Assembly (NCBI RefSeq): GCF_014701195.1
Contig: NZ_AP018712.1
Coordinates: 1,630,501-1,694,500 of the forward strand
Direction of reading: 5' to 3'
From: Tepiditoga spiralis
Lineage (GTDB): Bacteria; Thermotogota; Thermotogae; Petrotogales; Petrotogaceae
Length of the DNA stretch: 64,000 nt
The translations under genes and the position numbers were made by a program. Of the stretch, positions 10,929 through 60,400 are shown one piece after another (the stretch's first letter is position 1; the number at the start of each line of letters is the position of its first letter). The notes under the pieces were generated by a model that saw only the letters and a program-made list of their open reading frames with translations, was not told the origin of the DNA and made no database searches.

Positions 10929-12352
10929 AGTTGATATTTGAAAAAAGTACTAAAGGAAGAAAAGGTTTTAGATTACCAAGATTAGACGTACCAAAGCAAG
11001 AACTTCCAAAAAATCTTCTTAGACAAGAAAAGGCAGAACTTCCAGAAGTTTTTGAAATGGATGTTGTTAGACACTTTGAAAGTCTTGAAAAAATAAACCA
11101 TTCTATTGATAGAGGATTTTATCCATTAGGATCTTGTACAATGAAATATAACCCTTTTATAAATGAAGAAATGGCATCTTTGAGTGGCTTTGTTAATTTA
11201 CATCCTTATGTTGAAGAAAAAGATGCTCAAGGCGCTTTAGAATTGATGTACAATCTTCAAAAAAGTCTTGGTGAAATAACTGGAATGGATGCAGTTACAT
11301 TGCAACCTGCTGCTGGAGCACATGGTGAGTTAACGGGTATGCTCATAATTAGGAAATATATAGAAGATAAAGGTTTAACACACAAAACAAAGGTAATTGT
11401 TCCAGATTCAGCACATGGAACCAATCCAGCATCAGCAACTATGGCTGGTTTTAAAGCTGTTGAAGTTAAGTCAACAGATAAAGGTAGAGTTGATATTGAA
11501 GAATATAAAAAATTAATGGACGATGATGTTGCAGCAATAATGCTTACAAATCCTAATACAGTAGGATTATTTGAATCTGATATTCTTGAAATAGCAAAAC
11601 TTGCTCATGAACATGGAGCTTTATTGTACTATGATGGAGCAAATTTAAATGCAATAATGGGAATGGTAAGACCTGGAGATATGGGATTTGATGTTGTTCA
11701 TATGAATTTACATAAAACTTTTTCAACTCCACACGGCATGGGTGGACCGGGAAGTGGTCCAGTTGGTGTAAAAGAATATTTAAAAGATTACTTACCAAAG
11801 CCAATAGTTGAAAAAAATGAGAATGGATTATATGAATTAAACTATGATATTCCAAAAAGTATTGGAAGAGTTAGAAGTTTATATGGAAACTTTCTTGTTT
11901 TAGTAAGAGCATATACATACATTTCAACAATGGGTAGTGATGGTCTAAAAAAATCAAGTGAATATGCAGTTTTAAATGCTAATTATATGCGTGTAAAACT
12001 TATGAATTCAATGAAAATGGCTTATGATGAAATATGTAAACATGAATTTGTTGTTGAAGGAACCTTTTTAAAGGAATATGGATTAAAAACTACAGATTTT
12101 GCCAAAAGAATGCTTGATTATGGAATTCATCCATCAACAATTTATTTTCCTTTAATTGTAAAGGAAGCAATGATGTTTGAGCCAACAGAAACAGAAAGTA
12201 AAGAAACTTTAGACGAAGTAATTGAAGTAATGTTAAAAATAGTAGATGAAGCAAAAAATACTCCAGAAAAATTACACAATGCACCTTTTACAACTCCTGT
12301 AAGGAGATTAGATGAATTAAAAGCAAATAAAGATATTAAAGTAAAATATTAA
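10925..12352 (+). CDS. gcvPB: Glycine dehydrogenase (decarboxylating) subunit 2
   Basis: 475 aa from the ATG at 10925. This start overlaps the gcvPA stop and follows GTGGAGG, so the longer frame reaching back to 10859 is unlikely. The PLP-lysine motif [18 protein letters not shown] is present, as are the [10 protein letters not shown] and [12 protein letters not shown] signatures. It carries the PLP cofactor of the split P protein. It is the last gene of DUF2007-gcvT-gcvPA-gcvPB and ends in a strong terminator. Confidence 0.97.
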
Positions 12353-12375
12353 AAGCAGGCTAAGCCTGCTTTTAA
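12351..12375. terminator. Bidirectional terminator between gcvPB and the Fur-family gene
   Basis: AAAAGCAGGC / GCCTGCTTTT perfect 10-bp stem with TAA loop. A-run and T-run flanks serve both convergent genes. Confidence 0.88.
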
Positions 12376-12387
12376 TATTTTAAGTAT

Positions 12388-21733: not shown

Positions 21734-21779
21734 AATAACGGTGTATATATTACAATAAATATATACACCGTTATTTTTT
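21734..21779 (+). terminator. Very long perfect terminator hairpin
   Basis: AATAACGGTGTATATAT and its exact complement (21759-21775) form a 17-bp stem with an 8-nt loop, followed by T's. Confidence 0.88.
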
Positions 21780-40911: not shown

Positions 40912-42801
40912 ATGAAAAAAAGTATTTCAGAGTTAAAAAAATTATCAAAAATTTGTAGAGGAGATATTTTGAAGATGACATATGTATCAAAATCAGGTCA
41001 TCCTGGTGGATCAATGTCTTCAATAGATATTTATTTATCCGTATTTAATAGAGCAAATATGAATCCCGAAAAACCATTTGATGTTAATAGAGATAAAACA
41101 ATAATAAGTCATGGCCACACTTCTCCTGGTGTTTATGCAGCACTTGGAAGATTAGGATTTTTTAATATAGAAGAAGCTTTAGCTGGTTTTAGACATCCAG
41201 GAAGTATTTTTGAAGGACATGTTACAAGAGGTATACCTGGTATAGAATGGTCTACTGGTAATCTTGGTCAAGGATTATCTGCTGGAGTTGGTATGGCACT
41301 TGCAGCAAAAAAATTAAATAATAATTCAAGAGTTTATGTGCTTTCTAGTGATGGTGAAAGTCCAAAAGGTCAAATAGCAGAAGCAAGAAGAACTGCAAAA
41401 AAAGAAAATTTAAATAATTTAACGGTTATAGTTGATTACAATGATATTCAAATTTCTGGTAGAGCAAGAGATGTTTTATATGTTGATATAGCAAGTGAAT
41501 ATAAATCTGCTGGCTGGAATATAATTGAAATAGATGGTCATAACTTTGAACAAATAAATGCAGCACTTGAAAGTGCTGAAAATTATAAATTGGGACCAAC
41601 AGCTATTATTGCAAAAACAATAATAGGTAAAGATGTTTCATTTATGGAAAACAGACACGAGTATCATGGTTCACCATTAAATGAAACTGAATTAGAAAAA
41701 GCATTAAAAGAATTAAATGTAGAAAACGATGTAAAAAAATACATTGAAATGAGAAATAAACTTACTCTTGAAAGAGATTCTCATAATTATAATAATGTAA
41801 AACTTGATGTAAATACTGGAAAACCAATTATGTATACAAGAGAAACTACTACTGATAATAGATCTGCTTGGGGAAATGCTGTTGCTGATTTAGCAGTTTT
41901 AAATAAAGATAAGTTCCCTGTTGTCACAATTGATTGTGATTTGAAGCCATCTGTTAAACTTGCAAAATTTGAAAAAGTAAATCCAGAAGGTTATGTACAA
42001 ATTGGAATTCAAGAACATAATGCAGCTACTATAGGTGGAGCTATGTCAACTTGTGGAGTATTAACTTTCTTTACTGATTTTGGAGTTTTTGGACTAGATG
42101 AAGTTTTCAATCAACAAAGATTAAATGATATAAATCATACAAATTTTAATACAGCGATAACTCATTGTGGTATTGATGTGGGTGAAGATGGAAAAACTCA
42201 TCATGCAATAAATTATATAGGTTTAGTTAGAAATATGTACAACACTCAATTAATAGTTCCTGCTGATCCTAATCAAACTGATAGGGCAATAAGATATGCC
42301 GCTTCTCATGAAGGAAATGTTATTACTGCAATGGGAAGATCTAAAATACCAGTTATTTTAAATGAAAATGGTGAAATATTCTTTAATGAAAATTATGAAT
42401 TTGAATATGGTAAAGCAGATATATTTAGGAAAGGAAAAGGTTTGACTATATTTACATATGGAAGTTTTGCTAATATGGCTGTAAATGCTGCAGATGAATT
42501 AAAAAAAGAAGGTATAAATATTTCTGTTGTTAACTTATCAACACCATTATCTATAAATGTAGAAGAAATAAAAGAATTTATAGAAGATAATATTGTAATA
42601 ACTTATGAAGATCATAATGTAAATAGTGGAATTGCTAATGAACTTTCTAAATTAATAGTAGAAAATGGATTAAAAGTTAAAAAAATTATAAATATGGGTG
42701 TTAATGAATATGCACCATCAGGATCTATTAAATATTTATTAAAATATTTTGGAATGGATGTAGAGTCTTTAATTAAAAAAATTAAGGAGTTAATGAAGTG
42801 A
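40912..42801 (+). CDS. tkt: Transketolase
   Basis: 629 aa, full-length single-chain enzyme. It is ThDP-dependent: SKSGHPGGSMSS at the N-terminus, GNLGQGLSAGVGMA, SSDGESPKGQIAEA ... VDYNDIQISGR (ThDP/Mg region), and IQEHNAATIGGAMS in the pyrimidine domain. It moves two-carbon units in the pentose phosphate pathway. GGAGGTG precedes the ATG. Its stop overlaps the rnc GTG start (GTGA). Confidence 0.95.
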   Translation: MKKSISELKKLSKICRGDILKMTYVSKSGHPGGSMSSIDIYLSVFNRANMNPEKPFDVNRDKTIISHGHTSPGVYAALGRLGFFNIEEALAGFRHPGSIFEGHVTRGIPGIEWSTGNLGQGLSAGVGMALAAKKLNNNSRVYVLSSDGESPKGQIAEARRTAKKENLNNLTVIVDYNDIQISGRARDVLYVDIASEYKSAGWNIIEIDGHNFEQINAALESAENYKLGPTAIIAKTIIGKDVSFMENRHEYHGSPLNETELEKALKELNVENDVKKYIEMRNKLTLERDSHNYNNVKLDVNTGKPIMYTRETTTDNRSAWGNAVADLAVLNKDKFPVVTIDCDLKPSVKLAKFEKVNPEGYVQIGIQEHNAATIGGAMSTCGVLTFFTDFGVFGLDEVFNQQRLNDINHTNFNTAITHCGIDVGEDGKTHHAINYIGLVRNMYNTQLIVPADPNQTDRAIRYAASHEGNVITAMGRSKIPVILNENGEIFFNENYEFEYGKADIFRKGKGLTIFTYGSFANMAVNAADELKKEGINISVVNLSTPLSINVEEIKEFIEDNIVITYEDHNVNSGIANELSKLIVENGLKVKKIINMGVNEYAPSGSIKYLLKYFGMDVESLIKKIKELMK

Positions 42802-43541
42802 AGGATAACAGTATAAAAATGACGAAAATGGAAGAAAAAAAAATAAATAAAATGATAAAAGAAATGAATTTGCCTGATTCAATAAACAAAACTCTATTAT
42901 TTGTTTCACTATGTCATACTTCATACGTGTTTGAAAAAGAAAATAAAGGAAGAAAAATTAATTCTAATGAAAGATTAGAATTTCTCGGAGATTCAGTGTT
43001 GGAACTCATAATCTCCGAGTTCCTTTATAATAATTATAGCCTTTCAGAGGGAGATATGTCGAAGATAAGAGCTACTGTTGGAAGTGAATTAATCTTAGCT
43101 GAAGCTGCATTAGAAATAAATTTAAATAAATATATATTTTTAGGGTTAGGAGAAGATAAACATGGTGGTAGAGAAAAACATTCTATATTATCTGATGCAA
43201 TGGAATCACATATAGCTTCAATATATCTATCTCTTGGATTTGATTTTACAAAAGATTATGTTTTAAATATATTAAATAAGTATATAAAAAAAGCAATAAA
43301 AGGCGAATTATTTTTAGATTATAAAACAAGATTACAAGAAATAACACAAGAAGTTTTTAAAGTATTACCTGAATATAAAATTATGAATTCTGAAGGACCT
43401 TCGCATTATAAATACTATAAAATAGCAGTCATAGTAAAAGAAAAAGTTTATGGAATTGGTGAAGGCCATTCAAAAAAAATAGCAGAACAACTTGCAGCAA
43501 AAAAAGCTTGTGAAAGGCTTACAAAAAATGAAGAAAATTAA
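42798..43541 (+). CDS. rnc: Ribonuclease III
   Basis: 247 aa from a GTG overlapping the tkt stop, with AAGGAG at 42784-42789. The signature ERLEFLGDSVLELIISEFLY (about 58-77) holds the catalytic acidic residues, and SDAMESHIASIYL carries the second set. A C-terminal dsRBD ends GIGEGHSKKIAEQLAAKKA. It cleaves double-stranded RNA in rRNA and mRNA processing. A 10-bp hairpin (42984-43019) lies on the signature motif, listed separately. Confidence 0.96.
   Translation: MKDNSIKMTKMEEKKINKMIKEMNLPDSINKTLLFVSLCHTSYVFEKENKGRKINSNERLEFLGDSVLELIISEFLYNNYSLSEGDMSKIRATVGSELILAEAALEINLNKYIFLGLGEDKHGGREKHSILSDAMESHIASIYLSLGFDFTKDYVLNILNKYIKKAIKGELFLDYKTRLQEITQEVFKVLPEYKIMNSEGPSHYKYYKIAVIVKEKVYGIGEGHSKKIAEQLAAKKACERLTKNEEN
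42984..43019 (+). other. GC-rich hairpin on the RNase III signature of rnc
   Basis: CTCGGAGATT (42984-42993) and exact complement AATCTCCGAG (43010-43019), 16-nt loop. Codons ctc, ctc, atc, tcc, gag, ttc cluster exactly here and are rare elsewhere in the window. A possible site for RNase III to act on its own mRNA. Confidence 0.65.
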
Positions 43542-59518: not shown

Positions 59519-60274
59519 ATGATAATTAAAATAACTTTTAAGCCAAAAGATAATGCTACTGTTGATTTACCTGTTCATTATAATAGACCATTACAAGGTA
59601 TGTTTTACTCATTAATGGATTTTATGGAAGAAAAAACCCCAAGATTATTTACTTTTTCTAGGATTTATCCAGAAGATAATTTTAAAGTAGAAAATAAAAG
59701 ATTAAAATTTAATGGCAACTTTGTGGTTTATTTTACTTCTCCTATTGAAAAAATAAATAATTCTATCATAAATATTTTAAGTAAAAAGAATATATTTAGA
59801 GTAGAAAAAAATTATTTTGAACTTGTGAATTTTAAAATTATTGAAAAAAATATTTCTAACAATCTTTTAATAAAAACATTATCTCCAATAACAACTTATA
59901 TTTCTGTTAATTTACCTAGTGGTAATAGATACACTCATTATTTTACACCTTATTCTACAGATTTCAAGGTTTTAATAGAAGAAAATTTAAAAAGAAAAGC
60001 TGAATTAGTAGGAATAGATACAAAAAATATGGAATTTAATATAGAACCTTATGGAATAACTGAAAAAAATGAAAAAATACTTTTTTATAAAGGTGTTATA
60101 GTAAAAGGATGGACTGGGTATTATAAAATAAGTGGCTCAAAAACATTAGTGGATTTTGCATTAAACTCTGGAATAGGAGCTAAAAATTCTCAAGGTTTTG
60201 GAATGATTGTTCCAATAGATGAATTTGAAGATGTAACTATCGAAGATGAAGATGAATTTATAATAATAAAATAA
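59519..60274 (+). CDS. cas6: Orphan Cas6-family CRISPR RNA endoribonuclease
   Basis: 251 aa. It opens IIKITFKPKDNATVDLPVHYNRPLQG and ends with the Cas6 glycine-rich loop GIGAKNSQGFGMI (about 218-230). Two ferredoxin-like halves fit the length. Where active Cas6 proteins often have a His (fLH...pFtfS), this one reads DFMEEKTPRLFTFSRIYPED; only His21 (LPVHYN) and a His in RYTHYFT remain. It may thus bind without cutting, or use another residue. No other cas gene or repeat array occurs in the window. AAGGAGG precedes the ATG. Confidence 0.88.
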   Translation: MIIKITFKPKDNATVDLPVHYNRPLQGMFYSLMDFMEEKTPRLFTFSRIYPEDNFKVENKRLKFNGNFVVYFTSPIEKINNSIINILSKKNIFRVEKNYFELVNFKIIEKNISNNLLIKTLSPITTYISVNLPSGNRYTHYFTPYSTDFKVLIEENLKRKAELVGIDTKNMEFNIEPYGITEKNEKILFYKGVIVKGWTGYYKISGSKTLVDFALNSGIGAKNSQGFGMIVPIDEFEDVTIEDEDEFIIIK

Positions 60275-60300
60275 AGCATGACAATGTCATGCTTTATTTT
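60270..60300 (+). terminator. Terminator after cas6
   Basis: AATAAAGCATGA / TCATGCTTTATT perfect 12-bp stem with a 5-nt loop (CAATG), then T's. Confidence 0.85.
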
Positions 60301-60400
60301 ATTATTATTGTGAATTATTATAGTAAAAATAAATAATCAAATATAATTGATGAATAAATATCAATTTTACCTATAATTATAATATACTTTAAAAAATTTC

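Follow-up and report, generated by a model that had tools for sequence, protein, structure and literature searches.

A conserved mRNA hairpin in the active-site codons of Petrotogaceae rnc, a candidate site for feedback by RNase III

To our knowledge, feedback by RNase III on its own message has been mapped in few bacteria, with a different site each time. PMC3386247 and PMC8708148 provide three precedents, at differing places. In Escherichia coli, as these two papers recount from Bardwell 1989 and Matsunaga 1996, the enzyme cleaves a hairpin, rncO, in its own transcript and thereby lowers its expression. In Staphylococcus aureus the cut that RNase III makes in its own coding sequence falls at U+296, in a group of three coding hairpins (Lioliou et al. 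2012, PMC3386247), a precedent in line with the statement of an earlier note on this DNA that the enzyme cuts its own mRNA in some bacteria. Streptomyces RNase III is also autoregulated through its coding sequence (PMC3386247). In Streptomyces coelicolor, whose phylum is unrelated to Thermotogota, the enzyme encoded by absB (rnc) limits its own polycistronic transcript via the coding sequence, as far as the citations of Xu et al. 2008 in PMC3386247 and PMC10126417 describe it.

The gene analysed here is the rnc of Tepiditoga spiralis sy52T, a member of Petrotogaceae with a published genome of 2,502,404 bp and 25.8% G+C (PMC7734402); the genome from which rnc was taken is a single contig of 2,502,404 bp. 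Within the window, by which we mean the whole 64,000-nt stretch of DNA that was analysed, rnc lies downstream of the transketolase gene tkt (40912–42801), and its product matches PF14622 at 2.6e-33. The genes after rnc look, from their sequences, like those of radical-SAM enzymes. In every genome that carries the hairpin described below, rnc abuts or overlaps tkt, with a gap of −4 to +1, and is an internal cistron without a leader of its own. An E. coli-type leader site therefore has no place there: rncO sits in the 5′ untranslated leader, whereas the gene of the carriers is leaderless and its element lies in the active-site codons. Since rnc overlaps the end of tkt and is leaderless, a site within the coding sequence permits separate control of rnc, and an internal site is natural for feedback specific to one cistron. 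In genus g8 (loci L006 and L007), rnc is out of the tkt overlap, with an upstream ORF of 939 nt, a 19-nt gap and no hairpin. The features of the T. spiralis gene, in window coordinates, are the following.

42798..43541, + strand: rnc, RNase III, 247 aa; GTG start, 4-nt overlap with the tkt stop
42960..42982, + strand: upstream hairpin AATTCTAAT/ATTAGAATT, separated from the main stem by 1 nt; common codons
42984..42993, + strand: 5′ arm of the main stem, CTCGGAGATT; codons 63–65, CTC GGA GAT (L G D in the active-site signature), and one further nt
42994..43009, + strand: loop of 16 nt; codon conservation across genera not above chance
42995–42997 and 43004–43006, + strand: possible inner 3-bp helix in the main loop, AGT with ACT
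43010..43019, + strand: 3′ arm of the main stem, AATCTCCGAG; 1 nt plus codons 72–74, ATC TCC GAG, I S E
43001..43023, + strand: alternative hairpin, GGAACTC (43001–43007) with GAGTTCC (43017–43023); excludes the main stem and shares its 3′ arm
43023..43025, + strand: codon 76, CTT; the same in each of the six representative genomes, where 0.83 of 5 matches would be expected

The main stem, CTCGGAGATT paired with AATCTCCGAG, is a perfect 10-bp helix in frame over FLGDSVLELIISEF, covering nt 187–222 of the rnc coding sequence and codons 63–74 (LGD...ISE). The earlier note had placed a perfect 10-bp stem on the active-site motif of rnc, and its arms lie exactly at 42984–42993 and 43010–43019. The 86-nt segment around the stem folds at −22.6 kcal/mol (z = −3.6), a value that none of 200 shuffles equalled. 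A 10-bp repeat in this AT-rich window is unremarkable per se: perfect 10-bp inverted repeats with loops of at most 30 number 32 in the window versus 5–11 in shuffles. The repeat in rnc stands out by its unusual G+C-richness, and repeats with five G/C per arm number four in the window versus none in five shuffles. Three perfect inverted repeats of 18–23 bp with loops of 3–6 nt, at 12342–12382, 21734–21775 and 60260–60308, are possibly terminators.

The arms were also said to use rare codons. That is correct for CTC (2.2% among the codons of its own amino acid), ATC (3.5%), TCC (3.0%) and GAG (6.8%), as counted over approximately 20 kb around rnc, but TTC, named with them, falls just outside the arm (43020–43022). 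A second rare CTC, at 43005–43007, sits in the main loop. The LGD and ISE codons pair because these residues allow reverse-complementary codons (CTC/GAG, GGA/TCC, GAT/ATC), and for the same reason the stem lies in the codon frame. The second positions pair automatically, so the remaining pairing is set by the choice of third base. A coincidence, in which complementarity driven by the amino acids meets chance codons, gains from these free pairs, but the complementarity of LGD and ISE does not explain the codons actually chosen. Given the amino acids and codon usage, the probability of equal or better pairing is 7.5e-7 in T. spiralis, an exact value summed over all synonymous choices with local codon usage, and ranges from 7.5e-7 to 3.1e-5 per representative genome. 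Nor do non-carrier Thermotogota have a strong stem, locus L089 apart, and the 20 genomes of a distant phylum with the same protein signature form only 4–8 of nine pairs, with weak scores. We regard coincidence, along with recent interspecies transfer of the segment, as very improbable; a chance 10-bp repeat was rejected on the codon-usage probability together with conservation.

The family that bears the hairpin consists of marine and oil-field bacteria, and rnc was present in all 21 genomes sampled from it. The conservation of pairing in relatives had been set beforehand, in the earlier note, as the test by which its proposal might fall; the hairpin withstood this test, and the observation stands confirmed and firmer than originally put. 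Nine of the ten stem pairs are kept in all ten carrier genomes, which represent five genera (g1, g2, g4, g6 and g7) and encode RNase III proteins 57–69% identical to that of T. spiralis. The carriers retain CTCGGAGAT...ATCTCCGAG, letter for letter in nine of ten; the remaining genome has CTT for CTC, which turns a G-C pair into G-U. With up to 200 nt of flanking context on each side, the predicted pairing probability is 0.86–1.00 in all ten carriers versus near 0 in most non-carriers. Tepiditoga is among the carriers, as probably are Petrotoga, Oceanotoga and Geotoga, and Marinitoga probably belongs to the non-carriers, the putative genus labels being g4 Geotoga-like, g6 Oceanotoga-like, g7 Petrotoga and g5 Marinitoga. 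In the Marinitoga-like locus L018 (genome G009, g5), rnc has one TAA in the aligned stretch, at which a shorter frame may in fact end.

The hairpin was not found in the three other genera of the family, where one g3 genome retains the 5′ arm with a degraded stem. On the concatenated tree its distribution takes three changes, readable as one gain followed by losses in g3 and g8, and on the rnc tree, with weaker branches, it takes three as well. Among six representative genomes, all 90 comparisons of the six stem codons show identity, where codon usage alone would give 48%; for the six loop codons identity is 42%, where codon usage would give 43%. A sliding synonymous score over 13 codons reaches 67.2 at the main hairpin; in the control set of 11 neighbouring orthologous genes it has a mean of 0.5, a standard deviation of 2.5 and a maximum of 12.7. 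This control maximum comes from the tkt end, which overlaps the start signals of rnc, and is sensibly taken as a positive control. The second-highest synonymous conservation of the region is at tkt codons 614–629, at the overlap with the ribosome-binding site and start of rnc.

Set against the loop and the 11 control genes, the excess of synonymous conservation is restricted to the paired codons. Conservation in five genera lends strong support to the view that codon choice has been shaped by the RNA structure. A conserved mRNA hairpin in rnc is well supported, and we hold it to be almost certainly a selected mRNA structure. Selection at synonymous sites appears to have preserved it from the ancestor shared by most of Petrotogaceae onwards. 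Because synonymous identity in the loop and flanks is close to or at the chance level, the tract was not transferred whole, and recent transfer or gene conversion was rejected on this ground. Where a catalytic motif is highly conserved, strong synonymous constraint of this kind can bias evolutionary estimates made from codons.

Within the nine-pair core, eight pairs are invariant and the ninth changes once, from C-G to U-G; the tenth pair is U-A, G-U or U-G. Candidates for the compensatory changes in orthologues that were suggested earlier as a check are this tenth pair and a C-G pair of L089, but they are few, and since the core barely varies the compensatory evidence is thin. The observed number of pairs with two-sided change was reached in 153 of 500 shuffles, which makes the evidence on strand and pairing suggestive only. 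Wobble pairs hold in sense RNA and break on the opposite strand, and so the pattern favours, at that suggestive level, a sense mRNA structure over a DNA operator.

Conservation of the nine core pairs extends to their sequence, beyond pairing alone, and the CTT codon just downstream (codon 76) is likewise kept. Both observations would suit some other partner, such as an RNA-binding protein, a small RNA, another nuclease or a DNA-binding dimer on the inverted repeat. We consider such a partner unlikely: no second copy of the arm pair exists in any of the ten carrier genomes, where rnc holds the sole copy, sequences close to the 5′ arm occur no more often than those close to a reversed control, the G-U pairs speak for sense RNA rather than DNA, and the hairpin matches no family among the Rfam covariance models. 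A recurrent DNA operator or mobile motif was rejected on the single copy per carrier and the lack of any surplus of sequences close to the 5′ arm, and a known RNA family on the lack of an Rfam match.

Two further hairpins adjoin or compete with the main stem. The upstream hairpin, which the earlier note did not mention, is partly kept (88.9% of cells paired), which is not significant alone, and shows no synonymous excess in the 13-codon comparison; its loop-closing pair is U-A, U-G or C-G in carriers. The upstream and main hairpins could stack end to end as a longer helix. The alternative hairpin is a perfect 7-bp helix only in g1, g4 and g6, and again uses rare codons (CTC and TTC), with a probability for its codon choice of 2.5e-4 in g6 and 7.5e-4 in g4. 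It could act as a switch, or else present ribosomes with a second barrier. A pseudoknot between GGAA in the loop and a downstream TTCC was rejected by reasoning as sterically implausible, since it would have to span the 10-bp stem with no connecting loop.

The overlap of rare codons with a stable hairpin, and an alternative hairpin, in g1, g4 and g6, that could form again in front of a ribosome once the first had been opened, bring in translation pausing, the main rival to feedback by RNase III. Here hairpin and rare codons would slow ribosomes approximately 60–75 codons into rnc, with no recognition by RNase III; the delay would serve to time how the enzyme folds or dimerises, or to reduce its output. 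What is kept, however, is complementarity and not rarity: most loop codons are ordinary ones, and they vary freely, and the change of CTC to CTT in one genome retains the pair. The choice of rnc among all genes would also go unexplained, and we judge a translation-speed element improbable, though less so than another binding partner.

The hairpin, its conservation, its uniqueness in each genome and its position in the operon come from computation, and within the rnc transcript it is predicted double-stranded RNA. The best single explanation, to which we give an even chance, is that RNase III reads it and so regulates its own gene. From these data we infer RNase III as the reader, cutting as the event and negative feedback as the outcome. 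RNase III would bind the double-stranded element, probably with the adjacent hairpin and the inner pairs; enzyme in excess over rRNA and other substrates would nick or occupy its own message, and nicking or occupancy would reduce further translation of rnc. Self-cleavage, for which S. aureus and Streptomyces offer precedents, is plausible and would be the most economical function of the hairpin. Several points stand against RNase III as reader. Translating ribosomes would open the hairpin, three genera of the family are free of it, and the S. aureus site lies elsewhere in the gene. In the predicted folds, moreover, the stem of carriers has 10 bp plus 1–5 inner pairs, approximately 11–15 in total, close to the minimum of about 12 bp at which the E. 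coli enzyme makes a single nick (PMC8708148), which argues against cleavage. RNase III also forms non-catalytic complexes on ill-fitting structures (PMC8708148), so binding without cutting is possible at this hairpin.

Like the rnc of Petrotogaceae, that of S. aureus has coding-sequence hairpins that are conserved among relatives and for which feedback has been proposed, in S. aureus by cleavage. As opposed to the Petrotogaceae element, U+296 lies in a long irregular helix, approximately 75–110 nt deeper into the coding sequence, and cleavage there is proven, whereas the Petrotogaceae hairpin is predicted, with no sequence homology shown between the two. The Tepiditoga pre-23S stem, which the same enzyme is expected to process, is likewise a point against cleavage: it has 14 contiguous pairs and further pairs besides, is clearly longer than the rnc stem, and showed no sequence similarity to it. 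The natural relatives with and without the hairpin allow a direct test of its function. If RNase III does act there, the feedback site would be made of active-site codons, in a deep-branching phylum, and would have been found through conservation.

The wider comparison covered approximately 80 other Thermotogota rnc genes and the 20 genomes of a distant phylum. Among the other Thermotogota, only L089 (genome G039, family f4) gave P < 0.01 in a within-gene codon-permutation test of pairing strength. This locus belongs to a distant family of the same class and is a lead for the generality of an active-site hairpin. Tentatively, and short of an even chance, the active-site codons may themselves be the RNase III feedback site, with LGD–ISE pairing under joint selection, and may have arisen repeatedly, in Petrotogaceae and in L089. 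The L089 gene has a perfect 9-bp stem, CTCGGCGAT/ATCGCCGAG, at the same rnc codons, with P = 6.7e-5 given codon usage and approximately 0.005 when corrected for the approximately 80 genomes. In it the protein has A in place of S, and the central pair of the stem is C-G in place of A-U.
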